A stretch of DNA of 22,273 nucleotides from a virus, in IMG/VR virus record IMGVR_UViG_3300007516_000174, positions 1-22,273 of that record; one strand, written 5' to 3'. The notes under the pieces were generated by a model, which was given only the letters and a program-made list of their open reading frames with translations, searched no databases and was not told the origin of the DNA. Numbering within the stretch: the first letter of the stretch is position 1; each line of letters starts with the position of its first letter. Shown in pieces: positions 1-20,618 of this stretch. The position numbers and the translations under genes are program-made.

Positions 1-3000
1 ATATACCAAACACTGTTATATGTGTCTTTAGTCCATGAATCCAATGTAGTTGGAGCATTGTTAATATTTTTAGTTTCTCCAAATAGAACATCTCTATAGC
101 CTGACAGTGTGCTATCATCCTCAACAGATCCAGCATATCCTAAAAATGAGAACACTGCTGTTGATCCATCACCAGTATAATATGTGTTATCAGGACCACG
201 CAATATTTTTCCATTGTGTTCTAACAGGGTAAAACTGGAATACGGGCCAATTGCACCAGCTGGGTAAGTCAATGGATATACCACTGTTGACCCATCATAT
301 GTGATTTGTTCAGATCTAATTTCTGTAACTGCTTTGGTTCCAGGTGTTTGGTTGTATGAAGATACTTGAATTCTTGAGTCTGCAGGCGGAGGAGTATTAA
401 AAGTAAGGTTAATAGTTCTGCTTTCAATAGTTTCAGTAAATGCTGTTGTGGGTACTCCATTAATTGTAACAAATATCTGAGACAACGAGCTATCAAATTG
501 ATATGTTTCTCGTGCATCAGTGTTAAAATAAACTGTTGACCCATCACCTATTAATACGTTCGAAATCATATAGTTTGTACCAGAAATCTTAAATGTCTTA
601 ATAGATATAACAGAGTTAATTAGTGGGGTATTTGTAAACGTTATTGTCTGGTCAGCAACATTAACTGTGTAATTGGTTGTGTTATCATCAGTTAATCGTT
701 GAGTTTCTCCATCTATAGAAACTATAATCGATGCCAATGTTCCTATAGTTGTTCCCACCTGGCTTGTACTTTTTCTTAAGCTGTACGTAGCAGTTGCTCC
801 ATCTGCTTTATAATTTCTAATTGTAATATATGGCACACCTGATACTGGCGTTTGGTACACTTTAATATCTACAGTATCAAAAATACTGCCTGGTAGATTT
901 TCTTCTGGAGAATAACTAGTATCAGGCGTTAAGAAAGTATCCCCCTCTAAAATAATATCACTAGAAGCAATACCCAATGCTGATTTAAATAATCCTCCAC
1001 TGATCAAACTGTCTAGTGTTTTTTCATCAGTTGGTATAGAAACTCCGTCAGACTCAAAAGGAATTAATTCAATTAATGTATCTGCCGGGGCGGGATTATT
1101 AGCATCACCTACAATAATAAATGCAGTAGTCGATCCGTCTCCACGAATTACCTGAGATATTTGTCTTGTTCTATTAACATTAGCAGTTGCTAGTGGTTTT
1201 GATGCCAACGATCCGCTTATATCTGTAAAGTATACTGTGTATACATCCAACGATGTAGGGGCAAAGTCAAAAATAAAGTTAGTAGTTGATCCATCACCAT
1301 AAAACACTTTAACTCTGCTTAATCCGTACCCATCCCAGGGTAAATCATACCAAGGAGAAGCGTCCCAACCTTGACTGTTATTAAATGCCAATCCAGTAAC
1401 TGTTACTCCGCCATAGTCTACTCCGGTCATCACATGTGACAACTCATTGCCAGGCATGCCTACTGTTGGAGTATATAATCCTAGAGTTCTCTCAGCGGCT
1501 GTGATGTATGGTTCGTCTCCTCTTAATCTTATTAGATTAGTCAATCCTTCATCAAAGTTAGTAGTACTAACATAACTGCTGATTACTTTATAGAATGTGT
1601 CGTTGTATCTTATCAAATCATTATAAGCATAAGCAGTTTTAGCTGTCCAAATTAACACTGTAGCAGTGGATTGAACTCTGTCAAATTTAATAGTGGTGTT
1701 GATGTCTCGCACAAGATCATTTTTAAGAAGAGCATAGGCTCTAGCAGTATCTAATGGCGTTACACCGTTATCTCCCCCGCCTGTAAGTACCACTCTTGGT
1801 GTTGCTGTGTAATTAGAACCGGTGGTTAATAAGCTAATTCTTACTACTGATCCTTCTCTAATAACTGCTCGAGCAGTCGCTTGGTCAACATCTGTTGTGG
1901 TGTACACATCATAATTTGAAGGTCTATCCACTTTGGCTGTATTTTTTCCTGTAGTTGGCATATAAAAAGTGATGCTTGGAAATTCTGAAAACTTAAAAAC
2001 CTCACTAGTATTTGATCCCCCGGCTTGACTATCTGCCACATTACTATCAACTTCAGCGGTGTATAATGGATAGAAATATCCATATGACCCACTAGTGCTA
2101 CCTTGTGTGCTGTATCCAAGCACTGTGAATGGCCCTACACTCTTTGTTGTGCCACCTACGAGAGTGACTGTGGGAGCAGTTGTATACCCACTACCTCCAT
2201 ACACTACATCGATACTGTTTACATATTTTTTGTGATGGTCTCTCCAAAAACGATGGGGATATGTGCTTAAAATATTTGCATCTGTATCTAAATCGACATT
2301 TCTAATCTGTGTTCTATCATACACAGCAGGTAAATCAAAATCGGTATAGATCCCATCTTCTGTGTCTGTACTAGTGTATCCTAAACGATATTCTCGAACT
2401 TTTGTATGGAAAGGTTTTACTTCATTGATGTATTCTTCCACATAGTTTTCAGTGTTAGCTCTATAGCTCTTTCTTTGGTCTAACTCTCTTAATTGATTAG
2501 ACACACTTATAAATGATGTTTTTGACAACCAGTCTGTATATGTTAATTGTTCTAACACTTTTCTAATACCTATAAAGAAAATATTATTGTACTCTATTGC
2601 CAACTCATTAATGAACAGATCATCTCTCAATGCCTTCATTATGTTTCTTAATTCTAAATGAGGTTCTCGGTCAAAGAAATTGTTATCGAAAGAATCTGTT
2701 CCGGCATATCCGATGTTTCCTAAACCATAATTGTACAATGATGATTTCAATTTGATCGCACCGTTTTGTGAAGCAACGTTCTCAAAACCATTTGATATTT
2801 TTTCAAAGATTTTCCAACCGCCGGTATCTGATATTAACACTTTAACATATTCGTTCAAATTAACTGGTGTTAACTCTAATTGATATTGATATTGAATTTG
2901 TTTGGCAATTATTCTATTACTGTTAAAAGAAGCATCATACCAATCTGTTGTCTCATAGTAGGCGTTGGTTTTATAAGTTTGCACTCTAATTCTAGACCAC

Positions 3001-6000
3001 TCAACACCGTTCCACTGATATATTGCCCAGAAGTTATTACTAACTTGCTCGTCGCTATGGACCAACACATTACGAGTGCCACTGATATCTCGTGTGTTAA
3101 TATAGGTTAAATCAGCGTAGGTATCAACTGCTTCATCCCATTCGCCAGATACAAAGGTTGGCTCTAGCTCTGAAGCATTTAGATTGTCATATCTAATACT
3201 ACTTGCCAATTGATATTTTATTAATACAGAGTTAGAATAATCAATAATCTCTTTTAGAGCATCGAATCTATTTGTGTACCAGCTCTGTCTTGGTCTGATG
3301 CTAGTTCCATATCTTTGTGATATAGGCACTGTGATATCAGGTACTTCGTTTCCTGCTATATCTGTTCCTGTTAAACTATCCCACCATTTGCTTTCAATTT
3401 GAACATTCGGTCTATCATCTTTATCACCCTCTCTGAGCAGTTTCCATACATAATGTACGTTGCCGTCTTTAATGTTGTCTCGATATGTAACATTCAAAAC
3501 AGTATTGCCGTTGTTTAAATCATCTTTAATATTGAATGTAATCAGTTTGTTTACATCAGTTACTGTGAAATAACGTATGCCTGATACAATGGGGTTTGTA
3601 ATAATATTAGAAATAAATGCTGTGGTGTTTTTTCTAGTTACCACACTCTTACCTGTATCGGGTAGGAATACAGAATTTTTTACCCAATAATAATAGTAAT
3701 TTACAAATGAATCTAATCGTGAGTTATATTTCTGTCTTACAGAATATACAGTATTGTCAAAATATTTCGGTGCACCTGAAATTCTTCTTGTTAATCCTTG
3801 TGTGGTATCAGCATTGCTGAACCATTGAGAAGGCGTTAGAGTTGATTCACTCCATTCATACACATCAATAGTACTGCCCGGAAACAGTCTTCCCCAATTT
3901 TTAATTTTGTACTCTTGGTCGCTTTGTTCATACCATAACCATCTAGCAGAAGACAGATCCCACCATACTTCTCCAATGTGTTCTTCTCCCCAAGATTGTC
4001 CTGATTGTGTTGTGACTGCAGAAGTTCCCACATCATACGCCGCTGGATCCCATTCTGTTTTGTAATTAATTTCTCTATCAGCAATACCTAGTATTCTGCC
4101 CTTGATTGGATCAAAATAGTCTAGATATCCTATAATTTTTTGTTCTGCTCTATTAAAAATAAATGCAGATTCAATGAGTCTGTTATCTATTAATGGTGTT
4201 TCTTGTGCTACTACTTTCCAAGAGTATGATCCAGCAGTTTTTAAATCATACACACCAACCATACCGTCATTCTCTCTTGTAGAAATATCAGATGTTTTTG
4301 TGTCGTCACCTGGCGATCCCACAAACACTGTATCATTAACAACAAATATCCCTTTACCAAAATTGTCATTAGCTGAGGTATGGGTTGAAACCAATCTTCC
4401 GTCTAATAAGAAGTCGTCATTATATTTGGTTGCTGTAAACACACCGCCCGAGCCAGTATTCAAATCTACAATGTGCGTATCATTTAGATCAAACGAAGTT
4501 AATCCGGTATCAAATGATATGTTTCTACTATTGGCATATGATTGTGCGCCAATCACTATCCTTGTTGCACCTTTATTGATATGCACAGTGGATCCAAACT
4601 GCATATTAACATCAGTATCTGGTGCTAGTATTGTTTGGTTCAGCGTGTATAATTGAGTAGAATCTTCGTTTGTGTCCCATTTATAAATGTAAATTGCGCC
4701 TGCATCATCTTGGAATCCTGTGTCTACTCCCGGAGCACCAATCACTAGTATTCTACCATCGTTGCTCATTGAGATAGTTTTACCAAAACTAGTATTCAGT
4801 GTGCTGTCTTCAGATGCAATACCTTTTAGTGTTTGTACATGAGTAAAGCTAGGTATAGTGCTACTATCGCTACCGACTGTATCACTTCTTACAAAAATTT
4901 CTACTTTTCCAGCATCACCAGGACTTAGTGAAGATATTGCAACAATGTCGCCGTTGTCATTAATGGACATTTTATGACCAAATCGTTTGCCTTCTCCTGG
5001 TTCATAACTAGATATTGTGCTAATTTGTGTCCATGCGGCATATGTACTGTCACCTACTGGATTATAATTGTATATGTAGACAATTCCTGTATCGTTGTTA
5101 TATCCGGGAGCAGATACCAGTAGATATTTTTGAGGAGTTTCTAAAGTACTTTTAATCGTTGGTTCTGCTAACACGTGAGACCATCCATAATTTAAATCTT
5201 CTGTAATGTCTACCTCAGGTGCTGTGATTGTAATGAATGGTTCGTATGCCCTAACAGATGTACTCCAAAGATACAAATGAATTATTCCAGAATTATTAAC
5301 TCTAGTGCTACCATCAGAAGCTACGTGAGCATAAGGTGCTCCGGCAATTACAAAATTTTCATCAGTGCTGATTGATAAACTTTCTCCCAATCGTCCGGTA
5401 CCTGGAGTACTATCATTCATTGTGAATGATTTTATTAGATTATATGCAGTTCCTATTTCTGTCCTCATAAAGAAATATATTACCCCTTGTGAACTAGCAG
5501 AAACACCCGAAGATGCATCTGCTCTGTTTCCAGGGGCAGATACTATTAAAAATCTTCCGTCTTCAGTAGAAACGGCTTGGTGCCCAAACTCTTGATTATA
5601 ATCAAAATCCGGACTGCCTAATCTTATAAGATTGTAAGGATCTGTTTTTTCGTAAATTTTCCATAACGATCCCGGATTATCAACAAAAATTTTATCTCCA
5701 GGAATATTAGTAACTTCATTTGCAACTTTATATTGGTCGTATGTTAAAATAGAAGTTGTTTTGTTTAATGCTGACATTCTTACACTAACGAAAGTATAAA
5801 GATTTCCGTATGTAATTACTGTGGACTCGTCTGCCAATAAATTTGAATTAACAGGAGGAAGTCCTGTCCCGTTAACCACAATAGAAGTTGTAGTTGGTAT
5901 ACTGTCAACCCGATATACTCTGTTTAAATCTGTGTATTGACTGTTAACTATTGCAATGTACTGTCCTACAATTAATTCATGAATATTATTAAATGTAAAC

Positions 6001-9000
6001 ACTACTTGAGTTCCGTCATTGATTGGTTCATAAGATGTTAGTGTTACACCTTTGTACGTAATTCGTTGAACGTCCCAATCTGTGTTAGATTTTTTTGCTA
6101 TCCAAATTAAATCACTGTTATTAATCTGTGTTACATCAAGATTTACTATATCCTGTATGTTTAATGCTGTGTGTTGTACATCAAACAGTCTAGCATACCC
6201 CGCAGTCTTGTAAATTTGGACAACATCTCGATCATAGCCCGGTTGTGTATAGTCATATTTTTTAAATGTTGATTCGGCTGTGTACTCTAAAGGTTTTGAA
6301 AATAAATTATCTCGATACACTATTGAGGATCGACTGTATTCTTTTTTTGAGTTTCCATCATTTAGTATCTCAATACTGTTATTGTTGTTTGTAAATTCTT
6401 CGTCTGACATTATTATTTGTATAGTTTTAGAGCTATCTACATTACCAAACTCTCCCACTTTAATCATCCACTCTGAGTAGGTGTTTAGATTGATATTTTC
6501 TCCATAGAATTTGGCTTTGACTAATTTTTGAATAGCATTGAGAGTGCCTTTTTCTCTGATAAACCCTTGATAGAATTTGTATTGTGAAATATCATTTTGA
6601 AATAAATTATCTAGATACGATCTAGACTGATATCCAATTAGATGTTGTGCTAATTGTTGCTGTGTTGCATCAAAGTTGTTGGTCTCTAATGAATAAAAAT
6701 CATTGAATTGAGAAATTTTATAGTCAAAATTTGGGATCAAACGAGCCGCAGGCTTATTAGATTTTTTAGTCCATTTTTCAATATCAAATACAGGGCCCGA
6801 ATTGTGATTCATTTTAGCAACATAAAAATAATTGCCATACTCTACTGTATTTCCGATATTATAATCAGTATTAGCAGTCCATCTATTCACTTTAGCTTCA
6901 TCAAAAACAAATCCTGGAGAATAATAATCCCCGTTCCAATCACCTGTTTTCCATCCAACTAGTTTTAATCTCTGTCTGCGGAATCCAGTTGTTAATTGAT
7001 AGATTATGTCGGAGAATACAGTGACATTATCAAAAATAATCAAGTGTTCTTTCTGTATAGCATTCATTGATACATTGTAAATGCCAGCGTTAGTATTTTT
7101 AACATTAAGAGCAAATTTGTTTCCAATTCGTTTTGTTGAAATATATGTTGATTCTATCGGTTTTCCGTTTGCATCTAATATAGAATATTGTCCAAGTAAA
7201 TTTTGAAACCTACTGATAATAGAATCTGTTGTTTCTAATACAAACCCACTAGACCCCGGGGATAATGTAATTGCCGACCCGGGAGCCCAGCCTTGACGAG
7301 TCCAATATAAAAACTCTTTAGCAGACATCTCCCAATTTTGAACTTCTTGTAATTCGTTGCTGAATTTATCAAATGTAAATCCTCGATCTTCTAAATATTT
7401 TCCATATCCAATTAAAAAGTCTATAACACTTTGTACAGTTTTAAATACAGTACCGTAGGTTACTATAGTTTCTTTTGATGACCAATCTTTATAGATCACT
7501 GCTTTAGAATTACCTGCTTCAATGCTGTATGCATTATTGTTTTTTACAGGAGAAAACACACGGAAGTATGGTCTATAGGTATTGTATCCAACTACTTTGT
7601 ATCCACCTTCGAGTGTACTATTATCATTGGTTGTGGCACTGTTGAGTTCAACTAATACCCCCGAATATTCAAACGTCTCTATTGGGTTGCTAGATCTAAA
7701 TAGGAGTTTGTAATTTTCTTCTGGAATAAATTGAGACCCTACTGTGGATCCGGGACTAACGCTGTCTGTTAACACTTTTATATTGTCTTTGTCTGTAAAT
7801 CCTCCCAATTTGTATGATAATTGGACATTTAAATTTTTTAATTTATCATAGAAATACACAGCCGGATCTAAACCATTTTTAATTAGATAGTTGACAATGA
7901 ATGGTTGATATCCTGCAGTTCTGTTGTATCCTGAAGTAAGATTAGAAGTTTCTAAATAGAATGTTGCAGATGCTAACGTAGGTGCTAGACCTGTATCAAT
8001 ATTGATAAGATTGCCTGCTAGGTTTTTTCCTAATCTGCTGTTGTCTACAAAATATCCAAAAAATTTGGCAGGTTTAGTTAATGCTAACAGCTTCATTATT
8101 GCAAAAGGATAATGACTACTTCTTCTCCATGCAGTTTCAGCTGACGCATAATCTCCAAACTTCCATTTGTTTTGAAGTCCTAAGTTTTCGTATTGTTTTA
8201 TTATACCAACATCTATCGGTGATCTAAGATTGCCGCTGTCATCCACCGGAAGATAATTTAATAACCCGGTTCTTTTATATTTTAAAATTGTTGTTTTTAA
8301 ATTAGCATCATATCCCACTGAAAGATCATTCCATAATAACTCATTACCTGATGTGTATGGTCCTGGACCATATGTGGTTTCCCAGTGATTTGGTTTTTCT
8401 GAATATCCTAGCATCTCCCATGGGTTAGTGTGTGGTTTGTCTGTGTCATAGAGATATTTGTAGATACCTCTCCAATATCCTAATAATTTTTCATTTGATA
8501 TAATGCTGTAATTACTGCTGTAATTAAATGTAAATTGATCACTGCTATCATAGTCAAAATTTTCTTGATAGTTTACACCATTAGCTCCTGCCCAACTATA
8601 AAAATCCAAACTTAATATATCATTAATTTCTTTTCTTGTATATTCTGTCTTTCTAAATGCTCCTGGCATTACATCATCAATAGATAATAATGTAGGATCA
8701 TATTGTGTTTTACAGTTGTTGTAAATTCGTTTTTCTAATTCTAATAATAAGTCATCTCTATAATCTCCAAATGCAATAGTTTGACTGCCGTCGTGTCCCA
8801 CAATAACATTAGTAGTAATTCTATATGTGTTGTCGATTATTATTTCTGGTTTAAACTTTGGATACAATCCTAATTTTGTAGGAGTTTGTGGAACAAAACT
8901 ACCTTCGGTTTCGGCATAATCTTTAATTGTAATAATGTCTCCTTCAACAAGTAGAGCAATAATAGTAACTCCGTCAAATGTTATGCTGAACGTATAATCA

Positions 9001-11876
9001 TACCCCAATGTTAACTGAACACCATTAAGATAAACGTAGACTGCTCTATTACTCAATTCTGTTACGCTGAAGTTTGATTCGATCGCATATTCTACTTCTT
9101 CTTCTGCCTGCACTGTGTACGTTCTTGTTCGAACTGTTTCTCCAAATCCAACCATGTCGTCATAATAGAAAGGAAAACTCTTATCTTTATTAATATTCAT
9201 TAATTTAAGAATTTCGTCCACTCTGTTTGGAACAGTGCCTTCTTGTGTTGTCCCTCCAGATTGAAGTAAAAATGTTTCTTTAAATCTTTGATATTCGTTT
9301 GAAGAATGTTCTAGAGCTTTAATTGCATTAGCATTAGTGTCTATCAACAAGAACATAGCTTGAGGCAATGTCGATCCGTGTTGAATTATTGTTCCACCTT
9401 TAGTTTTTATATCTCCTAAATCTCGTAGATTACTACTACCTGGGGTTTTTCCTAATATTTTGTTGTTCTTCTCATTAATATTAACTATATGATTTAAAAT
9501 TTGTCCATATGTAAAATCGCCCAATTGACTATTAAAAGGATTAACTTCTAAATTTTCGGGTACTTCATACCATCCTATATCTGCTACTTTGATTGCAGAA
9601 CTGTAAGCAGTTATTTTGAGTATATCTCCAACTGTTAAATCACTATTAAATCGAACATATTTGTGTGCAATACCGTCTACTAGTGTGTAATCTTCGACCA
9701 AGTTTTGGACTTTATTATTAACTTCTAGCACAACAGACAAATCAGTTAATGACTTACTGTCCTTAAACACATCGATAGGAAATAATCTTGTCTCTTTATC
9801 CGTTACCGTGAACGTTTTTATCGACCGTTGTTGACTTTCTTCAGTACGTTCAGTCCAGGCAAATTTACTAGTATGCCTATCTCTTTGTAAAACTTGATGA
9901 TAGTGCCCGGTGTTAAAATTCTTTTTTGTTATTTGTCCATTTTTTTGATATTCGAAATAATCAGTAGCATAGTCAGATGTAAAAACAATATCTCCTATAT
10001 TTTTAATAGTGTTATATTTAATTTGTAAACCTAACACAGGATCAATCGGTGCTAAATCACTAGTTTTATATTTAAATAGGTTAGCTCCTCCGAATGTAGA
10101 ATTTGTATAAACCGATGTATCATCAAATGCTGTGTGATTTGAATCGAACAGTCTAAACAAAGGTGATTGGTTCACTGCTGTTTTACTCTGTCCTAATACC
10201 CAACTGTTTTGAGATTGTTTGTAGTACCAAGTTTTACCTTGATATGTAGCACCCATTTCTACAGAAACAGAGTCACCCTCTGCGGGTGTGCCATCGAAGT
10301 CTTGAGTTAACTTTAATGAGGTAACTTCTGCGCCAGCCACATTAACAAAATTTACAAGATACACCTTGTTATTGATCAGCGGGTCTGTGTCGGATATTAT
10401 TAATAGCCTCATACCATCTTTCAATGGCACACCATCCACAATGTATCCAGTTTGATTGACTATTCTCGAAAAAACATCTGTGGTAACAGTATCTACTAGT
10501 GTAACAGGTTTTTTGGCCGTAATACCATGATTGTATAAACTCAATCCAGCATCAAATTCTATAATTGGTCTTTTGGCTCTATCTGTTTCTAATAGGTTAG
10601 GAGTATATCCAAGTTCTTCCGCTGTGGTTTCTATAGTTGCTCTGTGGACCCATCTGTTGTAAGCACTCCAAGCATTTCCATCGATACTATCCCTTTTGAT
10701 TGTGATATAATCTTTTTCAACTGGTCTATAGAAACTAACTGAATATGGTCTGTCTGCATATGGTACAGCATCATAGGGTTCTGTAACCTGTTCAGCATAT
10801 GATCCAGATACAACTAAATTAGCCGTGTCTGTTAGTGTGATACTAGTACCTACCCCTTCTACATAAAATTCTTTATTAGCGTACTGTGTATTGACAACAT
10901 TGCTATCAAATCGTACTTTCATTCCATTTGATAATTTTGTACCTGATGACAGTGTATAATTGTTAGTTCCTACTATTTCGTTTACAGTGTTGATATTGTT
11001 TGTGTCAGTAATTGTTCTAATAGTAAATGTACCTTGCATCGCGGCGTGTGAACTACACTGATAATACAGTACATGTGGTGCATTTGTAGGTACTGTGAAT
11101 GTTAGTACATCTTGTTCAACACCATTGCCCGATACACCTGTGGAATATAAAATTGAAGTACTGTCGTCTGAGGCTATTCCAGTTGTAAATGGTTCTGTCA
11201 TTATTGTAAAAGGATGACCTAGTGTATCAATAATAAATTTATATGTGTTGCCCCTGTATAAAGTTATTTTTGGATTGTCAATACTAGGATATGTGCTAAA
11301 ATTATAAGCACGTTGAGCAGAATGAGAAACAGCAATTTCAGAAACCACATTTGGTCCACTGTTAGTAATTAGAATAGGGTTTAATCCTTCTGATATCCAA
11401 TAATACTCTCGATAGTTAACTAATTTGTCAAAATCAATTCCAGGAGTCCAAGCGTAAACTTTCTCTTTGTTAAGTCTATCGTGATTGTCAACATTTCCTC
11501 CAAGGAATTTAATCTGATTGATGTAATCATCGTACGTTGCAGTAAATTGTATTTGGTCTTCTGGATTTATCGAAGATGTATCTTTTTTTGTATAGGTTAC
11601 TGTGGGCTCTAACTGATAATCGTTTCTGTTTTTTGAATTGGACGTAAGATAATAATCTGTTGATACAGCGGAGTGGGCATCTTTTCTCCCCACGTACCCA
11701 TCTAATCGTTCCAGTTTACCTGGCTGGATTAATTGATCCAGTGTGCTACTTAGAAATCGTTCATTAGTATCTGTTCTATAGAATGCCGGTAGATGAGCAA
11801 TGGATCTTTTATAAGTTATTCCATTTTGTACTACAACTACTTCGTTGTTTTGACTGTCTATAGGTATATCTGACAT
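1..11876 (-). CDS. Giant baseplate/tail structural protein, C-terminus beyond window
   Basis: Not a protein I can name. The frame was followed codon by codon from ATG 11876 to base 1 without a stop: 3,958 codons, 3' end missing. The start lies 2 bp after the gp6 stop, behind AGGA at 11885-11888. The N-terminus (FYRTDTNERFLSSTLDQLI, then ERLDGYVGRKDA) resembles large virion proteins of marine T4-like phages. Modules seen: cupredoxin-like at about 201-286, CBM5/12-like motif at W1666, seven FG-GAP repeats at about 2080-2560, a conserved-looking tail region at about 2560-3210 (it includes EVKPFHTKVREY), GSGY-type motifs at G3227 and G3353, a second CBM-like motif at W3410, and GDGST repeats from 3527. 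By position it replaces T4 gp7, the largest wedge protein (about 1,030 residues), but gp7 homology is inference. Likely role: peripheral baseplate scaffold carrying receptor- or glycan-binding modules. The coding call is near certain; the role is moderate. Confidence 0.93.
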   Translation of the reverse strand, partial: MSDIPIDSQNNEVVVVQNGITYKRSIAHLPAFYRTDTNERFLSSTLDQLIQPGKLERLDGYVGRKDAHSAVSTDYYLTSNSKNRNDYQLEPTVTYTKKDTSSINPEDQIQFTATYDDYINQIKFLGGNVDNHDRLNKEKVYAWTPGIDFDKLVNYREYYWISEGLNPILITNSGPNVVSEIAVSHSAQRAYNFSTYPSIDNPKITLYRGNTYKFIIDTLGHPFTIMTEPFTTGIASDDSTSILYSTGVSGNGVEQDVLTFTVPTNAPHVLYYQCSSHAAMQGTFTIRTITDTNNINTVNEIVGTNNYTLSSGTKLSNGMKVRFDSNVVNTQYANKEFYVEGVGTSITLTDTANLVVSGSYAEQVTEPYDAVPYADRPYSVSFYRPVEKDYITIKRDSIDGNAWSAYNRWVHRATIETTAEELGYTPNLLETDRAKRPIIEFDAGLSLYNHGITAKKPVTLVDTVTTDVFSRIVNQTGYIVDGVPLKDGMRLLIISDTDPLINNKVYLVNFVNVAGAEVTSLKLTQDFDGTPAEGDSVSVEMGATYQGKTWYYKQSQNSWVLGQSKTAVNQSPLFRLFDSNHTAFDDTSVYTNSTFGGANLFKYKTSDLAPIDPVLGLQIKYNTIKNIGDIVFTSDYATDYFEYQKNGQITKKNFNTGHYHQVLQRDRHTSKFAWTERTEESQQRSIKTFTVTDKETRLFPIDVFKDSKSLTDLSVVLEVNNKVQNLVEDYTLVDGIAHKYVRFNSDLTVGDILKITAYSSAIKVADIGWYEVPENLEVNPFNSQLGDFTYGQILNHIVNINEKNNKILGKTPGSSNLRDLGDIKTKGGTIIQHGSTLPQAMFLLIDTNANAIKALEHSSNEYQRFKETFLLQSGGTTQEGTVPNRVDEILKLMNINKDKSFPFYYDDMVGFGETVRTRTYTVQAEEEVEYAIESNFSVTELSNRAVYVYLNGVQLTLGYDYTFSITFDGVTIIALLVEGDIITIKDYAETEGSFVPQTPTKLGLYPKFKPEIIIDNTYRITTNVIVGHDGSQTIAFGDYRDDLLLELEKRIYNNCKTQYDPTLLSIDDVMPGAFRKTEYTRKEINDILSLDFYSWAGANGVNYQENFDYDSSDQFTFNYSSNYSIISNEKLLGYWRGIYKYLYDTDKPHTNPWEMLGYSEKPNHWETTYGPGPYTSGNELLWNDLSVGYDANLKTTILKYKRTGLLNYLPVDDSGNLRSPIDVGIIKQYENLGLQNKWKFGDYASAETAWRRSSHYPFAIMKLLALTKPAKFFGYFVDNSRLGKNLAGNLINIDTGLAPTLASATFYLETSNLTSGYNRTAGYQPFIVNYLIKNGLDPAVYFYDKLKNLNVQLSYKLGGFTDKDNIKVLTDSVSPGSTVGSQFIPEENYKLLFRSSNPIETFEYSGVLVELNSATTNDNSTLEGGYKVVGYNTYRPYFRVFSPVKNNNAYSIEAGNSKAVIYKDWSSKETIVTYGTVFKTVQSVIDFLIGYGKYLEDRGFTFDKFSNELQEVQNWEMSAKEFLYWTRQGWAPGSAITLSPGSSGFVLETTDSIISRFQNLLGQYSILDANGKPIESTYISTKRIGNKFALNVKNTNAGIYNVSMNAIQKEHLIIFDNVTVFSDIIYQLTTGFRRQRLKLVGWKTGDWNGDYYSPGFVFDEAKVNRWTANTDYNIGNTVEYGNYFYVAKMNHNSGPVFDIEKWTKKSNKPAARLIPNFDYKISQFNDFYSLETNNFDATQQQLAQHLIGYQSRSYLDNLFQNDISQYKFYQGFIREKGTLNAIQKLVKAKFYGENINLNTYSEWMIKVGEFGNVDSSKTIQIIMSDEEFTNNNNSIEILNDGNSKKEYSRSSIVYRDNLFSKPLEYTAESTFKKYDYTQPGYDRDVVQIYKTAGYARLFDVQHTALNIQDIVNLDVTQINNSDLIWIAKKSNTDWDVQRITYKGVTLTSYEPINDGTQVVFTFNNIHELIVGQYIAIVNSQYTDLNRVYRVDSIPTTTSIVVNGTGLPPVNSNLLADESTVITYGNLYTFVSVRMSALNKTTSILTYDQYKVANEVTNIPGDKIFVDNPGSLWKIYEKTDPYNLIRLGSPDFDYNQEFGHQAVSTEDGRFLIVSAPGNRADASSGVSASSQGVIYFFMRTEIGTAYNLIKSFTMNDSTPGTGRLGESLSISTDENFVIAGAPYAHVASDGSTRVNNSGIIHLYLWSTSVRAYEPFITITAPEVDITEDLNYGWSHVLAEPTIKSTLETPQKYLLVSAPGYNNDTGIVYIYNYNPVGDSTYAAWTQISTISSYEPGEGKRFGHKMSINDNGDIVAISSLSPGDAGKVEIFVRSDTVGSDSSTIPSFTHVQTLKGIASEDSTLNTSFGKTISMSNDGRILVIGAPGVDTGFQDDAGAIYIYKWDTNEDSTQLYTLNQTILAPDTDVNMQFGSTVHINKGATRIVIGAQSYANSRNISFDTGLTSFDLNDTHIVDLNTGSGGVFTATKYNDDFLLDGRLVSTHTSANDNFGKGIFVVNDTVFVGSPGDDTKTSDISTRENDGMVGVYDLKTAGSYSWKVVAQETPLIDNRLIESAFIFNRAEQKIIGYLDYFDPIKGRILGIADREINYKTEWDPAAYDVGTSAVTTQSGQSWGEEHIGEVWWDLSSARWLWYEQSDQEYKIKNWGRLFPGSTIDVYEWSESTLTPSQWFSNADTTQGLTRRISGAPKYFDNTVYSVRQKYNSRLDSFVNYYYYWVKNSVFLPDTGKSVVTRKNTTAFISNIITNPIVSGIRYFTVTDVNKLITFNIKDDLNNGNTVLNVTYRDNIKDGNVHYVWKLLREGDKDDRPNVQIESKWWDSLTGTDIAGNEVPDITVPISQRYGTSIRPRQSWYTNRFDALKEIIDYSNSVLIKYQLASSIRYDNLNASELEPTFVSGEWDEAVDTYADLTYINTRDISGTRNVLVHSDEQVSNNFWAIYQWNGVEWSRIRVQTYKTNAYYETTDWYDASFNSNRIIAKQIQYQYQLELTPVNLNEYVKVLISDTGGWKIFEKISNGFENVASQNGAIKLKSSLYNYGLGNIGYAGTDSFDNNFFDREPHLELRNIMKALRDDLFINELAIEYNNIFFIGIRKVLEQLTYTDWLSKTSFISVSNQLRELDQRKSYRANTENYVEEYINEVKPFHTKVREYRLGYTSTDTEDGIYTDFDLPAVYDRTQIRNVDLDTDANILSTYPHRFWRDHHKKYVNSIDVVYGGSGYTTAPTVTLVGGTTKSVGPFTVLGYSTQGSTSGSYGYFYPLYTAEVDSNVADSQAGGSNTSEVFKFSEFPSITFYMPTTGKNTAKVDRPSNYDVYTTTDVDQATARAVIREGSVVRISLLTTGSNYTATPRVVLTGGGDNGVTPLDTARAYALLKNDLVRDINTTIKFDRVQSTATVLIWTAKTAYAYNDLIRYNDTFYKVISSYVSTTNFDEGLTNLIRLRGDEPYITAAERTLGLYTPTVGMPGNELSHVMTGVDYGGVTVTGLAFNNSQGWDASPWYDLPWDGYGLSRVKVFYGDGSTTNFIFDFAPTSLDVYTVYFTDISGSLASKPLATANVNRTRQISQVIRGDGSTTAFIIVGDANNPAPADTLIELIPFESDGVSIPTDEKTLDSLISGGLFKSALGIASSDIILEGDTFLTPDTSYSPEENLPGSIFDTVDIKVYQTPVSGVPYITIRNYKADGATATYSLRKSTSQVGTTIGTLASIIVSIDGETQRLTDDNTTNYTVNVADQTITFTNTPLINSVISIKTFKISGTNYMISNVLIGDGSTVYFNTDARETYQFDSSLSQIFVTINGVPTTAFTETIESRTINLTFNTPPPADSRIQVSSYNQTPGTKAVTEIRSEQITYDGSTVVYPLTYPAGAIGPYSSFTLLEHNGKILRGPDNTYYTGDGSTAVFSFLGYAGSVEDDSTLSGYRDVLFGETKNINNAPTTLDSWTKDTYNSVWY
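150..1300 (-). repeat. GDGST repeats near the visible end of the giant protein
   Basis: The motif GDGST followed by a short aromatic/aliphatic strand recurs: G3527 (YGDGSTTNFIF), G3579 (RGDGSTTAFII), D3692 (variant ADGATATYSL), G3777 (IGDGSTVYF), D3861 (variant YDGSTVVYPL) and G3902 (TGDGSTAVFSF). Repeats of this kind are familiar from marine phage tail structural proteins, where each starts a small beta-sandwich. Spacing is irregular (about 40-110 residues), so some units may carry longer domains between the motifs. Confidence 0.6.
1545..1649 (-). other. CBM5/12-like aromatic motif, copy 2, in the giant protein
   Basis: From W3410 the protein reads WTAKTAYAYNDLIRYNDTFY. It lines up without gaps with copy 1 at W1666 (WTAxTxY, then Y and FY at the same spacing), so the two are probably duplicates of one module. 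No second tryptophan closes this copy. Confidence 0.35.
4200..5640 (-). repeat. Seven FG-GAP repeats, predicted beta-propeller in the giant protein
   Basis: Seven protein repeats begin with an F/L/Y-G motif followed by a hydrophobic strand and a GAP-like turn. They start at F2097 (FGHQAV...VSAPGN), L2163 (LGESLS...IAGAPY), Y2230 (YGWSHV...LVSAPGY), F2299 (FGHKMS...), F2364 (FGKTIS...VIGAPGVD), F2427 (FGSTVH...VIGAQSY) and F2506 (FGKGIF...VGSPGDD). Spacing is 63-79 residues. Seven such units are the classic integrin-alpha-type propeller. Several turns are rich in D/N/G, as in Ca-binding FG-GAP loops. The limits given are approximate. Confidence 0.75.
6765..6881 (-). other. CBM5/12-like aromatic motif, copy 1, in the giant protein
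   Basis: From W1666 the protein reads WTANTDYNIGNTVEYGNYFY and ends near a second tryptophan (EKWTK). The pattern W...Y..G..V.Y....Y resembles small chitin/cellulose-binding (CBM5/12) modules often found in phage tail-tip proteins. The resemblance is by motif only, and carbohydrate binding is inference. Confidence 0.4.
11019..11276 (-). other. Cupredoxin-like module in the giant protein (residues 201-286)
   Basis: The segment reads as a small beta-sandwich: an opening strand with NPKITLYRGNTYKF, then GHPFTI with H221, and after about 50 residues a closing strand with YYQCSSHAAMQG. C274, H277 and M280 form the C-x2-H-x2-M ligand loop of type-1 copper proteins, and H221 sits where the first histidine ligand lies. 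Similar modules (GHPF ... YYxCxxHxxM) are known to me from marine phage tail proteins and marine bacterial surface proteins. Copper binding is inferred from the ligands, not shown. Confidence 0.62.
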
Positions 11877-11878
11877 GA

Positions 11879-14800
11879 TTAGTATCCTGTTCCACTACTA
11901 CCCGTGCTGGCTCTAGAACCAGAGTTAGAAGCAGTAACAGACGACACAGCGGATGTTGATCTAATGTTAGTTGTTACTCCGGTAGTATTAGATATTACTA
12001 TACCGCTGGCTAACAATTGATTTGCCCCGAGTGCGTCAATAATAGCCACATCGTCTACCGTTGCACCACTAACAAATATTTCATCAGGAGCACTGCTGAT
12101 TTGAAATAGAGACCCAAACACCTGTCCAGATTGATTAGGCACTATCACTACTGTGAGTAGGTTTGGTGCTAATTGGTTGTGTATGTAAGTGGCTAATTCC
12201 GTAAAGTAAAAAGTATCGCCAAAGTCAAAATTATTTAGAGCAAAGAATTCGTTAATTGCTCGAATCGTTCTAGTTTTAATTATTGAATCTGTTGCATTAG
12301 TTGAGCTATTTTTTACAACTTTAAATGTTGCTTGGAATTGTTCATCTGCTTGATTTCCAAATAAAATTTTATATTTTACCGGATGGAATATTATTTGATC
12401 CGATACTGCTTTGATAGACATTAATGAACTGGCATAACTGATACGCATTTGATCCGATGTCGAAGGCAGTGGTTTGGCTTCTATTGATCTGTCACTTAAC
12501 CAAATTCTAAATCGCTGATCATATGATCTTTCTAAAAGATAGATGTCCATTATATTGGTTTGGGCAGGATCGATTCTTGTACTTTCTGTTGCAGTATGTT
12601 TATATAAAAACTCAATAGCACTTCTACCCCGACTAGCAGTATAATCTGTAGTTGTTATTAATGTGATTGTGGATGCATTATATTTTTTAATAACATTTTC
12701 ATTGTTATCATAGAAGTAAAATAATTGACCGGTAAGATAGTCACTAGGTAATGTTATATCTATTTCGTTCTGCGTCACAATAAAGTTGCTGGCCGCATAG
12801 GGTCTGTATCTCTCAATGCTGTTGTATCCGATGTATTTTTCAAAGAATACAGATTTAGTAGCAACGTTAGAATCGGGCTCGACAAAAATATCAAAAATTT
12901 CAGGATTGTCTACCACACCGTCATCATCCTTGTCAAAGAATCCTACTTTAACTTTTCTATTGTCTTGATATCCGTCAATCTCTTGCACAGTATCCACAAT
13001 CTGCCAATCAATAGGATATGCTAGACCTAATCCTGTACTAGGCACAGTGTTGCTTTTTAATAATCGCACAGTGTCTTTAACCACTGTGCCTGAAATATAG
13101 TCATAAGTTCTGTCCGCTTTATTGAAATAGAATTTGTTATCTCCTGCACTTTCAAAAATATAATCCAATGCTCTGTATGTCACTGTGTACACACTACCAT
13201 CACTAGTGAATTTAAACCACCAGCCGGCGTCTAGATTAGCCTGTGTAGTATCTCCTGTATTTGCTAGAGAAAATACAGATGTATCATTTAAATCTGCGGC
13301 AGTAATTACTGTCCATATCGAATTCTCTTCATCATATCTTAGAGCAAATTCTTCATATGCTTCAATTCTGCTAACGATATCTGTTTTTAGTGTTGTACTA
13401 AACATTGTTTTGAGTGGGGGGAACACGGCAGTTAATACAGCATCATTTGGAATTATATCATTTAATGTCACTGGTCCTAATCCGTTTTCGAGATTACCTA
13501 AACCTTGGTTTGCTCCATCTAATACTACTGCACTAATTTTTGACCAGATTCGATCTTGTGCTCCTGTGGTTCCTGCTGTGACTAATTTGCCATTTAAGAA
13601 CTGTCTCGAGTCAGGTGATGTGAATTTAACAAGAGATCCTACCTTAGCATATTTTAAATTATTAACCGCATAGTCTCCTAGTGTTAATGGTCCCAAGCTA
13701 TTAACATATCCTGTATTAGTGTTTGTTCCAGTTGTGGTACTAACCCAAGATGCATTCAATGGTTCTAGATTTTTGGTTCCGTATTTTAGGTAGAAGAACT
13801 GTCTTGAATATGCTTCTATCAGTTTCTTTTCTACCATAGTATTAATTGTATCTGTTATTTGATTTCTATTTGCAAATGTAAAAGTAAATTGAGGTATAGT
13901 TTCTTCCCTGTATAAAATCCCATCATCTGCAAATACTGATACATTACTGTATGCACCAGTTGGATCAATGATTTCCTTTGCTCTAGATATTCCACTAGCT
14001 GATCTGTTTACTGCTCTAACTTTTATAATTTCCTGAGAAACAGATAACGGCATCACATTGTAATCTTCTGCTGTAATCATTCTGTTTTGTGAATAATATA
14101 CCTGAGGTGCTTTAGTTTTAATACTGTTATTAGATTCAGTTTCTGTTGAGTTATAAACTGATTGTTGTAATGAAGCATTAATTGTTAATATCTGTCGAGC
14201 GTTGTTGGCATCAATATATGTCATAGAGAATTGTACACTTTGCATATCAGCCGGCTGGATAGAGAATTTTGCATTATCACTAGTTCTGTAATATACTCTG
14301 AATGACCCTGAAGGAATGTTTGCAAAGTTGCCATCTCCAAACACAAGATCCACAGCATCACCGTTTCTTGTGATTACATTATAGATGTCTCTAACATCTG
14401 CAGATAGAGAATTATAAATCGTATTGTTGCCTGCAAGAGACGGTACTTTGCTCCATAGTTTTTCTAATTGTCCAAAATCATCTAATTTGTATAACCAAAT
14501 ATCATCATTGTTAATGTTAGCAATATTGATATTTTTAGAAAGGTTTGTGGTAGGTTGAGTTATGTCAAAATCGTAATTGCCTATATTACCTTGTTTGAAC
14601 AATAAGAAAAAGCCGGTGTTGGGACTAGTATCTCCTGAGTTATCGTTTCGATAAAGGTAAGACATTGCTCCGCCCGGAACAGGAGAAACTTCGTAGATTG
14701 ATTCTGAGTTTGATATCGATGCTGGCACAATTTCAAATTCTCTGGATATACCGCTAACTGTTTTTGAATATTGATAAACTGGCACACCGATGTTGGCTGT

Positions 14801-15370
14801 ATTAATTGTATAGACCGATGTGTTTATGCCTCCTATTGAGTCCGATGTTAATGGTCTGCTAAACTTCTGTCCTTCAACGTTGGCCGCATTTAATATGTTA
14901 ATGAATTGTTCTCTGTAGTTACTGTTGGTTCCATCATTCCAAATAACAGTGGTGTTTGCTAGGTTTGTTCCAGTACTATCTAAAACTGTTTGTGTAGTGG
15001 ATACCGAAGAAAATTTTAATAATCCTGTAGCAGGTTTATTTCTTTTGACATTATAGTTAATCAGCCTTGCCAATCTTAAAATTGAATCTCTTCTCTCAGC
15101 AGTTTCTAAGAAATTTTCTCGAGCATTTAAATCCACTCTAAAAGAGAGTGATTGTGCCACATAGGCAATAAGATCAATCAGCGCCACATATTCTGAAGAT
15201 TCTACAAAATCATTGAAATCATCTGGATAGTTCTCGCGAAGATATCCTACCATGGTTCTTCTAAGTGTTTCAAAATCGTAGGATTTGAAATCCGCCTGCT
15301 GAAAAGCAGTGTAGATTTTACGCCAATCTTCGGCGACTAATAATCGGTTTTGTCTATCTGTAGTGGCCAT
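11879..15370 (-). CDS. 6: Baseplate wedge protein gp6, enlarged
   Basis: The N-terminal 115 residues (AEDWRKIYTAFQ, then DFVESSEYVALIDLIAYV and ENFLETAERRDSILRLARL) are typical of T4-type gp6, a gpJ-family wedge protein that ties gp25, gp53 and gp7 together and forms the ring around the hub. The C-terminal part (about 990-1125, with GSLFQISSAPDEIF) also fits gp6, and the last roughly 40 residues are a Ser/Thr/Gly-rich tail. Length is 1,163 against about 660 in T4; the extra sequence lies in the middle. Residues 813-824, DKDDDGVVDNPE, match the 12-residue EF-hand calcium loop with D1, D3, D5, G6, D9 and E12 in place. The gene begins 55 bp after the gp25 stop, with only a weak Shine-Dalgarno sequence. 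Confidence 0.93.
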   Translation of the reverse strand: MATTDRQNRLLVAEDWRKIYTAFQQADFKSYDFETLRRTMVGYLRENYPDDFNDFVESSEYVALIDLIAYVAQSLSFRVDLNARENFLETAERRDSILRLARLINYNVKRNKPATGLLKFSSVSTTQTVLDSTGTNLANTTVIWNDGTNSNYREQFINILNAANVEGQKFSRPLTSDSIGGINTSVYTINTANIGVPVYQYSKTVSGISREFEIVPASISNSESIYEVSPVPGGAMSYLYRNDNSGDTSPNTGFFLLFKQGNIGNYDFDITQPTTNLSKNINIANINNDDIWLYKLDDFGQLEKLWSKVPSLAGNNTIYNSLSADVRDIYNVITRNGDAVDLVFGDGNFANIPSGSFRVYYRTSDNAKFSIQPADMQSVQFSMTYIDANNARQILTINASLQQSVYNSTETESNNSIKTKAPQVYYSQNRMITAEDYNVMPLSVSQEIIKVRAVNRSASGISRAKEIIDPTGAYSNVSVFADDGILYREETIPQFTFTFANRNQITDTINTMVEKKLIEAYSRQFFYLKYGTKNLEPLNASWVSTTTGTNTNTGYVNSLGPLTLGDYAVNNLKYAKVGSLVKFTSPDSRQFLNGKLVTAGTTGAQDRIWSKISAVVLDGANQGLGNLENGLGPVTLNDIIPNDAVLTAVFPPLKTMFSTTLKTDIVSRIEAYEEFALRYDEENSIWTVITAADLNDTSVFSLANTGDTTQANLDAGWWFKFTSDGSVYTVTYRALDYIFESAGDNKFYFNKADRTYDYISGTVVKDTVRLLKSNTVPSTGLGLAYPIDWQIVDTVQEIDGYQDNRKVKVGFFDKDDDGVVDNPEIFDIFVEPDSNVATKSVFFEKYIGYNSIERYRPYAASNFIVTQNEIDITLPSDYLTGQLFYFYDNNENVIKKYNASTITLITTTDYTASRGRSAIEFLYKHTATESTRIDPAQTNIMDIYLLERSYDQRFRIWLSDRSIEAKPLPSTSDQMRISYASSLMSIKAVSDQIIFHPVKYKILFGNQADEQFQATFKVVKNSSTNATDSIIKTRTIRAINEFFALNNFDFGDTFYFTELATYIHNQLAPNLLTVVIVPNQSGQVFGSLFQISSAPDEIFVSGATVDDVAIIDALGANQLLASGIVISNTTGVTTNIRSTSAVSSVTASNSGSRASTGSSGTGY
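11885..11888 (-). promoter_or_regulatory. Ribosome binding site of the giant gene
   Basis: AGGA on the - strand, within the last codons of gp6, with 8 nt before ATG 11876. It supports this start and translational coupling to gp6. Confidence 0.6.
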
Positions 15371-15425: not shown

Positions 15426-15827
15426 TTAATACAAACGTTTGGCAGAGTTCTCATCAAAACTTAAAAGCAGTTTTTCAGTGATATTGTACGGAACATAGGT
15501 AATTGTGGCCTGTACAGATATGCCTTGCTCTGATTCAGAGACTAAAATCTCTTGAGTGCTGACACGAGGATCTGCATTAAGGTTGTTTGCAACATCTGCC
15601 GCTATCAGTTCTTTAAGAGCATCAGTTAATGGTTCAAATAATGCATCGTATATAATGGTACCAAACTCTGGATTTTCCACTCTCTCACCTTTTCGTATAC
15701 TGAATCTATTCATCAAATCTTGTTTGATCAATTCAAAGTCATAAAGTTTGTAGTTGGAATTGGTAGCTCTAGAACTGAATCCTTTAAAAACCTGTGATTG
15801 TGTAAATGAAACTTTATCTGTTGCCAT
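15426..15827 (-). CDS. 25: Baseplate wedge protein gp25
   Basis: A 133-residue protein of the gpW/gp25 family, close to T4 gp25 (132 residues). The family signature lies at residues 45-67: RKGER, NPEFGTIIYD and LFEPL, followed by a helix (ALKELIAADVANNL) and two strands. gp25 sits at the inner wedge next to gp6 and gp53, and its fold primes assembly of the contractile sheath. The start is 3 bp after the gp5-like stop, so the two are probably co-translated. Identification is very secure. Confidence 0.96.
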   Translation of the reverse strand: MATDKVSFTQSQVFKGFSSRATNSNYKLYDFELIKQDLMNRFSIRKGERVENPEFGTIIYDALFEPLTDALKELIAADVANNLNADPRVSTQEILVSESEQGISVQATITYVPYNITEKLLLSFDENSAKRLY

Positions 15828-15830
15828 ATT

Positions 15831-18134
15831 TTAAAATCCGAACATCTTTCCTATGCTTCTACCCACACTAGCAATGGTTGATCCAATATTACTGACCAAA
15901 CTAGTAACTTGAGTTATTGACGTTATCTGACTTCCTACAACATTTTTATAAGTGTCAGTAACACTATTTACAATATTTCCTGCCCCAGGAATGTTGGTGA
16001 TATTGCCCACGTTTATTCCTTTAGTTAAACTGCTTAAATTTGTTAAGTTGCCTAGACCACCTGTAATATTCCCTAAATCAATGTTACCTGTGATACCTGT
16101 AATGTTAGTGATTCCATCTGTTAAGTTGCCTGTTAACCTACCAATGTTTATGTTGCCTGTGATACCTGTTACAGTGTTAGGAAGATTTGCGTTGAGTATG
16201 TTGCCTGCTGAAGCAACAAAATTATCAACCGACGTTAGATCATTGATTGCTCCGGTCACTGTGCCTGAAATTGTTTGATTTAAATTGCCAGCTGTGAATA
16301 GTGTTCCTCCTTGATTTACAAATATTTGATTTTGCAGTAGATTCTTTACATCACCTATTATTGATCCTATGGTTTGATTTACTACAGAACTAATTGCATC
16401 GGTACCAATAGTAGGATTGCCAATATTGGGAATATTAAAATCTTTATTATAACTTTCTGTAAACTTTTTAGAGATTGATTGCAATTTGATAATATCACTT
16501 GTTCCGGAGCCATACCCTAATTCCTTTAGATGTACTCCTAAATCTGCTTGTAACTGAGCGGCTTGTACAAATAGATTGTCACTGATCCGATTTGATTGGG
16601 CCACAAATTCTGCTGTGCCTGGCACAGTGCTCAATGCACTAGGTTTGCCACCAGCAAAAGATACAATTTTATCTCTATGGAGTTTGAAAGGTTCATGTGT
16701 GGGTACACGCATACCATCCATTGAGAGATTACCGGCACTATTCACTTTGAGTGGTGAACTATTATATTTGTTTTTAGTATCGACATCCGGAATGGGAACA
16801 ATTAATGTTCCTGTGCCCGATAGATCATAAAATTTAGTTCTCTGATAGGTTGCAAGCAAATCAGCTGATGTTGGTCTGCTATTAAAGTGTATTTCGGTTC
16901 CTGTTAAATCATGTTTACCTCCGGACATATGTAATTGGCTTTTTTCAGCATAAGAAATTATTGCCCCATCTGGTGCTTTGCTTGTGATACTACCTTTTAA
17001 AGATTGAGTGTTAATATCATAATCAGCATAGGTCATAATTTGTTGTCCACCATCGATCACTATTTTTTGTCCAGCGGCTAATTTAATCTGCTCTTTAGCA
17101 TACATATTAATATTAGCGTCACTGTGAAAATCCATATTGCCTTTCGAACGAACTGCTACTGACTGCTCTGAATAGATATCTATAGATCCGTCAGCTGAGA
17201 ATTGCATCCAAGCATTGCCCGAACCATTTGCTATATAAACAACACCTGCTGTATCATTTAATAATATTTGATGTCCAGTTGCAGATCGAAACCTAATCAG
17301 TTGATTTTTACCCAATGCGTCACCATCATCCATAACAAACGAGTGGCCTGTTAATCTTTCTACTCGTTCTTTATGCTTGGACCCTGATACTCCTACAAAT
17401 TTTTCTTTAACACTAACACTAGGATCTCTTCTTCCCGGGGTACTGATTCCAAACACTTGACTTGGTGATTCTCTACGAGCAGAAGAGGTTGTTGTTCCTC
17501 TCACATTATCTTGCACTAATCCTTGAGCTCTTAAAATTTCTGCTTGAGGATGTATTGGTCTTTTTATTTTCGGATCAACCGACTTATCTCCTAAACTGTT
17601 TAATGTTGCTCTGTTAAGCTCTCCAGCTGGTAGATCATCTGTTCCATATATGGATTGTTTGGTATCATAATCTCCAGCATCACTGCTCAATCCTGTACTA
17701 GTAGACGATGCTATACCAGGTACCATGTGATTCATTAATGGTTCTGGTATGCATCCAATCCAATATGCTTGATCTGCTCTGCCTTCTACAAATATAACCA
17801 AGACTTTTGTGTCTATGTCTGGTGGAACCATCCACATTCCATATGAATGTGTTGAACTTTTATAATCATACGGATTGTTTTCTTCTATAAATTTTATAGA
17901 TTTTGATCCATAAAATGGTGCCAAATAATTGCAAGTGATCAATTGTCCAGTGTGTGGGTCATTTGTTCCAGCTACAGAAGGTATCAACACAGATACTCGT
18001 CCCATCCGAACTGGGTCAATATTGGATCTAACTATACCAATATATGGACCAGGATCTAATCTACTCCCTGTAATGTCTTTTTTTGGTAGATAGGGAGTGG
18101 CTGTATCTCCACTTATAAATGGTGTTAATGACAT
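15831..18134 (-). CDS. 5: gp5/VgrG-like central spike protein without a lysozyme domain
   Basis: The 767-residue protein has a gp5-type OB-fold at about 28-145 (GPYIGIVRSNIDPVRMGRV, then MVPPDIDTKVLVIFVEG). A linker of about 100 residues follows, then HSFVMDDGDALGKNQLIRF and a strand-rich segment (about 265-430; short units such as GSIDIYSEQSVAV, NMDFHSDANINMY, QKIVIDGG) that fits the trimeric beta-helix of the membrane-piercing needle. T4 gp5 carries a T4-lysozyme-like domain between these parts; the linker here shows no such domain. The C-terminal third is poor in motifs and holds 22-23-residue GIT/GNI repeats (656-723). The start overlaps the upstream stop (TAATG), with GAAGGG at 18143-18148 as ribosome site, 8 nt away. 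Confidence 0.88.
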   Translation of the reverse strand: MSLTPFISGDTATPYLPKKDITGSRLDPGPYIGIVRSNIDPVRMGRVSVLIPSVAGTNDPHTGQLITCNYLAPFYGSKSIKFIEENNPYDYKSSTHSYGMWMVPPDIDTKVLVIFVEGRADQAYWIGCIPEPLMNHMVPGIASSTSTGLSSDAGDYDTKQSIYGTDDLPAGELNRATLNSLGDKSVDPKIKRPIHPQAEILRAQGLVQDNVRGTTTSSARRESPSQVFGISTPGRRDPSVSVKEKFVGVSGSKHKERVERLTGHSFVMDDGDALGKNQLIRFRSATGHQILLNDTAGVVYIANGSGNAWMQFSADGSIDIYSEQSVAVRSKGNMDFHSDANINMYAKEQIKLAAGQKIVIDGGQQIMTYADYDINTQSLKGSITSKAPDGAIISYAEKSQLHMSGGKHDLTGTEIHFNSRPTSADLLATYQRTKFYDLSGTGTLIVPIPDVDTKNKYNSSPLKVNSAGNLSMDGMRVPTHEPFKLHRDKIVSFAGGKPSALSTVPGTAEFVAQSNRISDNLFVQAAQLQADLGVHLKELGYGSGTSDIIKLQSISKKFTESYNKDFNIPNIGNPTIGTDAISSVVNQTIGSIIGDVKNLLQNQIFVNQGGTLFTAGNLNQTISGTVTGAINDLTSVDNFVASAGNILNANLPNTVTGITGNINIGRLTGNLTDGITNITGITGNIDLGNITGGLGNLTNLSSLTKGINVGNITNIPGAGNIVNSVTDTYKNVVGSQITSITQVTSLVSNIGSTIASVGRSIGKMFGF
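15965..16169 (-). repeat. Three 22-23-residue Gly/Asn/Ile repeats at the gp5-like C-terminus
   Basis: Repeat units start at T656 (TGITGNINIGRLTG), T679 (TGITGNIDLGNITG) and S701 (SSLTKGINVGNITN). The second is 23 residues and the third 22 residues after the one before. At DNA level the first two share a near-identical core (ACAGGTATCACAGG). They lie after the predicted needle, so they may extend it or form its tip. Confidence 0.65.
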
Positions 18135-20318: not shown

Positions 20319-20618
20319 TTATAATCCTAAATCATTTTTTAAATTGCTCATCTTAGGTATTCTAATAATTTTATCAGGAGAAAAGTCGTAGATAGGATCT
20401 TCTATAACATCTGGATTTCTTTGAGCAAACACCCACCACAGTCTTGGTGTGCCATACAGATCATATGCGAGAAGGTCTGGTCGGTATGCGTAAATTTTAT
20501 CTATTGTATAGGATATGTCGTCTTGTTCGACAGTGATTACTCTTGGCACAAATAGATCAAGACTCATGTTGTTTTGAGGTGTACTAAAATATGGACTGGT
20601 ATTACTGTATGTGGCCAT
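20319..20618 (-). CDS. 53: Baseplate wedge protein gp53, short form
   Basis: The 99-residue protein matches the compact gp53 of marine T4-like phages: an opening Y/S-rich segment, then YRPDLLAYDLYGTPRLWWVF (45-64) and NPDVIEDPIYDFSPDKIIRIP. The end resembles a LysM-like fold, as described for gp53 (D...G..I.IP). T4 gp53 has 196 residues, so roughly half is absent. gp53 clamps neighbouring wedges together around gp6 and gp25. Its ATG overlaps the stop of the preceding gene (TAATG), and AGGA at 20627-20630 lies 8 nt upstream. Confidence 0.8.
   Translation of the reverse strand: MATYSNTSPYFSTPQNNMSLDLFVPRVITVEQDDISYTIDKIYAYRPDLLAYDLYGTPRLWWVFAQRNPDVIEDPIYDFSPDKIIRIPKMSNLKNDLGL

Follow-up and report, generated by a model that had tools for sequence, protein, structure and literature searches.

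Whether a structural protein of a virus particle can house a blue-copper site is the question raised by the IMG/VR virus record IMGVR_UViG_3300007516_000174, analysed here over 22,273 bases (the window). The minus strand of the window holds a T4-type baseplate block, in which an open reading frame (ORF) at 3..11876, encoding at least 3,958 residues and open at the window end, occupies the slot of the baseplate gene gp7. A domain near the N-terminus of the encoded protein (residues 181-287; 11016..11336, minus strand) carries the residues expected of a type-1 copper site. We consider it reasonably likely, on the combined strength of sequence comparison and structural modelling, that this domain is a true cupredoxin whose type-1 metal site is of the amicyanin kind, and that it forms a movable module set between two conserved segments of the gp7-slot protein of a marine T4-like phage.

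The putative ligands, all encoded on the minus strand, are H221 (first histidine, within a GHPF motif; 11214..11216), C274 (11055..11057), H277 (second histidine; 11046..11048) and the axial methionine M280 (11037..11039). The spacing from C274 through H277 to M280 is the amicyanin-type C-x2-H-x2-M, and the domain as a whole displays the type-1 copper pattern His ... Cys-x2-4-His-x2-5-Met, with the Cys-His-Met portion in the loop that leads into the last strand. A chance motif is ruled out by the composition of the ORF, at which the expected number of C-x2-H-x2-M occurrences is 0.00017, and by shuffling, in which H-x40..65-C-x2-H-x2-M appeared in 0 of 2,000 shuffles. The protein contains just two cysteines in 3,958 residues, C274 being one of them. 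A CuA centre is excluded because it requires two cysteines and the domain has one, and a disulphide role for C274 is unlikely since the domain has no second cysteine and only one other exists in the ORF. The first-pass annotation had named these four residues and their spacing, and reading the codons within the ORF confirmed both; its interval of 11019-11276 falls inside the domain (residues 201-286), the whole of which is wider, at about residues 181-287.

The structural model of the domain, generated with AlphaFold from 91 homologues, has a mean predicted local distance difference test (pLDDT) score of 90.4 and comprises eight strands. C274 is placed at the end of a strand (domain residues 89-94), H277 and M280 in the loop preceding the last strand (domain residues 101-107), and H221 immediately ahead of the strand formed by domain residues 43-46; in the model, this order of strands and loops is the blue-copper layout. 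The PDB matches listed by Foldseek (E ~4e-4, probability 1.00) were AcoP, amicyanin, plastocyanin, nitrite reductase, rusticyanin, pseudoazurin and azurins with engineered amicyanin-type loops, every one of them a cupredoxin or a cupredoxin-fold oxidase, which rules out an immunoglobulin-like phage decoration domain. A second model, covering residues 1-640 and built from a different alignment, gave the same class of PDB matches, with only cupredoxins and copper oxidases among the matches listed and with low confidence in its N-terminal part. At the sequence level, phmmer retrieved an azurin with a CAAHAAM loop (E 0.003), and the 91-member profile gave weak matches, mostly to copper proteins; another profile, A1, was too divergent for contig searches and against the PDB returned noise, in the form of repetitive designed proteins. 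The domain thus resembles amicyanin, plastocyanin and azurin in its predicted beta-sandwich fold, and amicyanin and the azurins with amicyanin-type loops in having a His followed by Cys-x2-His-x2-Met between the last two strands. The cupredoxin fold anticipated by the first-pass annotation is therefore borne out by both models. In BFVD, the domain model matched A0A481Z6J5, A0A481YVH3 and A0A481Z7Q7, with template modelling (TM) scores of 0.62-0.73; these entries are small proteins, labelled 'beta-sandwich proteins', from giant viruses that resemble pithoviruses and marseilleviruses.

Conservation of the ligands was assessed in orthologues of the giant protein. Contigs were fetched with ligand-free anchors (residues 1-186, residues 301-700, or profile stretches without ligands) and pooled with other orthologues, while pattern-based loci, a few of which are present in the 108-orthologue tree, were excluded as evidence of conservation because the search pattern itself includes three of the ligands. 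All four ligands are intact in 100 of 108 distinct domain-bearing orthologues, and three further orthologues show one or two changes (HSNM, HGHM and MCHM). Restricting the count to the anchored samples leaves this unchanged: in the N-terminal-anchored sample, 43/45 complete distinct domains have the full set. Outside a ligand-free clade of five members, considered below, H221 is conserved in 102/103 rows, C274 in 101/103, H277 in 102/103 and M280, the least varied of the four, in 103/103; the ligands rank 12th, 16th, 19th and 22nd of 110 columns by conservation, and C274 is nearly the sole conserved cysteine.

The same domain, recognised by sequence, recurs in cyanophage gp9, the wedge-tail fibre connector (phrog_677, E 1.2e-19, profile positions 328-409 of 412), where it closes a protein of about 400 residues at the C-terminus, whereas in the window it lies near the N-terminus of a giant protein. 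The first 309 residues of gp9 from P-SSM4, its non-cupredoxin part, served to fetch 80 contigs. The domain is present in 79 of these, the other being truncated where its contig stops, and the four ligands are intact in 55 of 55 distinct gp9 copies. In the gp9 records examined, the domain is not named as a cupredoxin. By sequence, 312 phage records match the domain, the majority of them annotated as gp9. The proximal tail fibre of P-SSM2 (TM 0.81) and tail fibres of Bellamy and RB11-B carry it as well, and approximately 18 clusters of other viral proteins contain it, some in two or three copies. From this distribution, the cupredoxin is a mobile module, shared by many different virion proteins among marine phages. 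Proteins of 440-540 residues with the same four-ligand domain are also encoded on contigs binned as Gammaproteobacterial and as Gallionellaceae (L039, L045 and L069), where they match the Pfam At5g54830-like family.

Several observations weigh against a functional blue-copper domain or set it apart from the known ones. The PDB matches listed share only 11-21% sequence identity with the domain, and TM-scores against solved cupredoxins are only 0.41-0.57. PF00127 (Copper-bind) scores 18.5-18.8 bits, below its cut-off of 21.2, and PF25489 (At5g54830-like), the best Pfam match of many members, scores 19.4-19.7 bits against a cut-off of 27, which bacterial relatives exceed and the window domain does not. 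Because the PF00127 score is below the cut-off, the domain is assigned to the cupredoxin fold class, which the models support, rather than to that family. The residue following H221 is a proline, whereas plastocyanin and azurin have an asparagine after the first His ligand; multicopper oxidases have His-Pro. Amicyanin, plastocyanin and azurin are secreted electron carriers, while here the domain is internal to a giant virion protein and its copper is predicted. In the tail fibre repeat protein of Synechococcus phage RB11-B (L018:6213-6488), three ligands are replaced (FAVM). Finally, five gp7-slot orthologues (L257, L259, L266, L271 and L273), forming one clade with 99% support, have 0/4 ligands (DSNR, DSDK, NSST, NSDL and KDDS). 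The statistical weight of this loss is limited, as it may represent a single event in a quick tree with some long branches.

These exceptions speak for a purely structural or adhesive fold derived from a copper-protein ancestor, in which the ligands belong to the folding core and bind nothing important: both the clade and, for three positions, the RB11-B copy maintain the domain without them. The same clade, set beside the remaining orthologues, nevertheless makes such a role unlikely, as it lost the entire set yet retains 25-28 of 38 other conserved positions (~70%), and elsewhere the four ligands are near-invariant over large divergence in two protein families. Near-invariance in both families combined with one whole-set loss implies that the ligands are selected together wherever they are present, and the clade itself indicates that the fold can do without them. 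A deeper branch (L252/L253/L255) has all four ligands, which fits a loss rather than a late gain, and the clade offers a natural control for the contribution of the site. Free substitution of the ligands among homologues, which the first-pass annotation had put forward as evidence against its proposal, is not what the 108 orthologues and the gp9 copies display. The roles that it suggested for a bound metal, namely locking a conformation, sensing redox state or docking to a host copper protein, stay at the level of candidate functions. The metal binding that it proposed stands as a well-supported deduction from fold and ligand conservation; the site cannot, however, be essential to every virus with the cupredoxin domain, because one clade has the fold without any ligand.

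We regard binding of a metal by this site as likely, given the conserved ligands and the modelled layout. Since nearly all relatives of this blue-copper-shaped domain retain the four ligands, virus particles probably carry metal on their tails, most likely copper. Copper is the favoured metal, with moderate confidence, because the combination His2-Cys-Met, in which Met varies least, is that of type-1 copper sites. The principal competitor is zinc or another divalent metal, bound in the cytosol during assembly as a static structural site in which copper plays no part. Baseplate assembly takes place in the cytosol, a compartment that offers zinc more readily than copper, and azurin-type sites made in the cytosol can take zinc; an axial Met in a His2-Cys-Met set is, however, typical of copper and unusual for zinc, and it is this Met that varies least, so that we judge a zinc site improbable, if somewhat less so than the other alternatives. 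Virion assembly occurs in the host cytosol, where free copper is extremely low; copper would therefore probably be loaded after lysis, at lysis or in seawater.

As to what a bound copper would do, we tentatively propose, with slightly less than even confidence in the two parts jointly, that the ligand loop, at one end of the sandwich, is stapled by the metal, and that this stapling gives the outer baseplate and tail fibres a contact face that is stable and exposed. This face could be used within the virion or toward the host surface, and the stapled surface module would decorate the baseplate periphery. An alternative is a redox-active copper site that triggers or orients the baseplate, either by docking to a copper or electron-transfer protein in the envelope of the host or by sensing redox state. 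The closest folds to the domain, amicyanin, plastocyanin and rusticyanin, are electron carriers, and phages that infect cyanobacteria and other marine bacteria carry the domain on outer proteins of the tail; one clade, though, functions without the ligands, and the domain is found in many unrelated virion proteins, a distribution that a general module fits better than a specific trigger. We accordingly rate redox docking as quite improbable. A broader formulation, in which marine T4-like virions bear several functional type-1 copper centres on baseplates and tail fibres (the gp7-slot protein and gp9 being two of the carriers), with copper supplied by the host or by seawater and affecting virion stability, host attachment or triggering, is possible but less likely than not; if true, tailed phages of the ocean would be copper-protein particles.

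The location of the domain within the giant protein points to an accessory role. It is preceded by a conserved N-terminal segment (residues 1-186; 11319..11876, minus strand), which at least 80 viral contigs share with four cultured jumbo phages that have no cupredoxin, and followed by a second conserved segment (residues 301-640; 9957..10976, minus strand), aligned in 40 orthologues. Orthologues of the N-terminal segment on viral contigs have the cupredoxin at the same site in every case long enough to show it. The jumbo phages Phosso, Atu_ph07, PA5oct and CBB (phrog_10938) possess homologues of both flanks and share the gene order after gp25 and gp6, but differ in that a short unrelated segment or nothing occupies the cupredoxin site, the second flank there following the first with no cupredoxin between them. 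Because these homologues retain the flanks without the cupredoxin, the insertion site tolerates exchange, and the module is an accessory that lies outside the core of the baseplate protein.

Known systems offer partial parallels. Cyanophages carry the plastocyanin gene petE (PMC3037559), a phage-borne blue-copper fold as in the window, but one encoding a soluble photosynthetic electron carrier that is made in the host from a separate gene and forms no virion domain. Capture of petE into the giant ORF is not favoured, given that petE is a separate gene and the PF00127 scores are weak. The nearest published idea concerns iron: HxH sites that bind it occur in tail fibres of T4-type and marine phages and have been proposed to act as a 'Trojan horse' (PMC11705849). 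These sites likewise place metal on marine phage tails, but they hold octahedral iron and involve no cupredoxin. By analogy, tail-bound copper might be offered to host copper-uptake receptors for attachment, and the recurrence of the module on tail proteins of ocean phages agrees with this; the module lies, however, inside a giant protein, around residue 200, and not at a fibre tip, which leaves a copper 'Trojan horse' very improbable.

No description of a cupredoxin in a phage virion was found in the open-access literature, with subscription papers, preprints and automatic database annotations lying outside the search; within that literature, a blue-copper-like centre is a class of cofactor described for no virion. 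If copper is indeed bound, blue-copper-like centres would sit on the tails of a large fraction of the T4-like phages of the sea, in cyanophages on almost every gp9 examined. This would be a measurable property of the virion (metal content, colour, electron paramagnetic resonance), would link phage infectivity to the copper chemistry of the ocean, and would explain a recurring, unnamed domain of tail proteins.

The assignment of the giant protein to the baseplate derives from its surroundings, all on the minus strand. The block comprises a gp53-like baseplate wedge protein (20319..20618; PF11246, 22.2 bits, cut-off 21), a gp5/VgrG-like hub protein with an OB domain (15831..18134; PF04717 above its cut-off), a gp25-like baseplate wedge protein (15426..15827; PF04965 above its cut-off) and a gp6-like baseplate wedge subunit (11879..15370; phrog_10646, E 1e-288; phrog_219). 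The giant ORF adjoins the gp6-like gene, and most of it matches phrog_10938, a virion structural protein. The gene order is thus gp53, gp5-like, gp25, gp6-like and then the giant ORF, which lies directly after gp25 and gp6 as does the gene for the T4 baseplate wedge initiator gp7; Phosso, Atu_ph07, PA5oct and CBB also have gp25, gp6-like and a giant protein in succession. Since the PA5oct homologue is marked as detected by mass spectrometry (ESI-MS/MS, electrospray ionization tandem mass spectrometry) in its GenBank record, the giant protein is very probably present in the virion. The first-pass annotation had called it a baseplate protein, a label upheld by gene order and the PA5oct record rather than by direct placement. 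On the plus strand, an ORF of at least 205 residues (21658-22272) runs off the window and has no Pfam match.

Other parts of the giant ORF match further modules. FG-GAP repeats (PF14312, E 1e-14), an integrin-type beta-propeller motif, occur in three stretches within 2877-5876 of the minus strand, one of them near residues 2356-2398. Two weak matches to the carbohydrate-binding module CBM_5_12, both below the cut-off (~6792-6881 and ~1566-1649, minus strand), suggest sugar-binding modules. Giant gp7-slot proteins are also found in cyanophages, and gp7 of P-SSM4 is annotated as a gene of ~21.9 kilobases encoding ~7,300 residues (L016, AY940168.2:57144-79082). Contigs encoding the giant phage protein are present in bacterial metagenome bins (L029, L032, L050 and L064) assigned to Pelagibacter, Betaproteobacteria TMED41 and Porticoccaceae, and are either phage DNA that was binned there or a pointer to the host.

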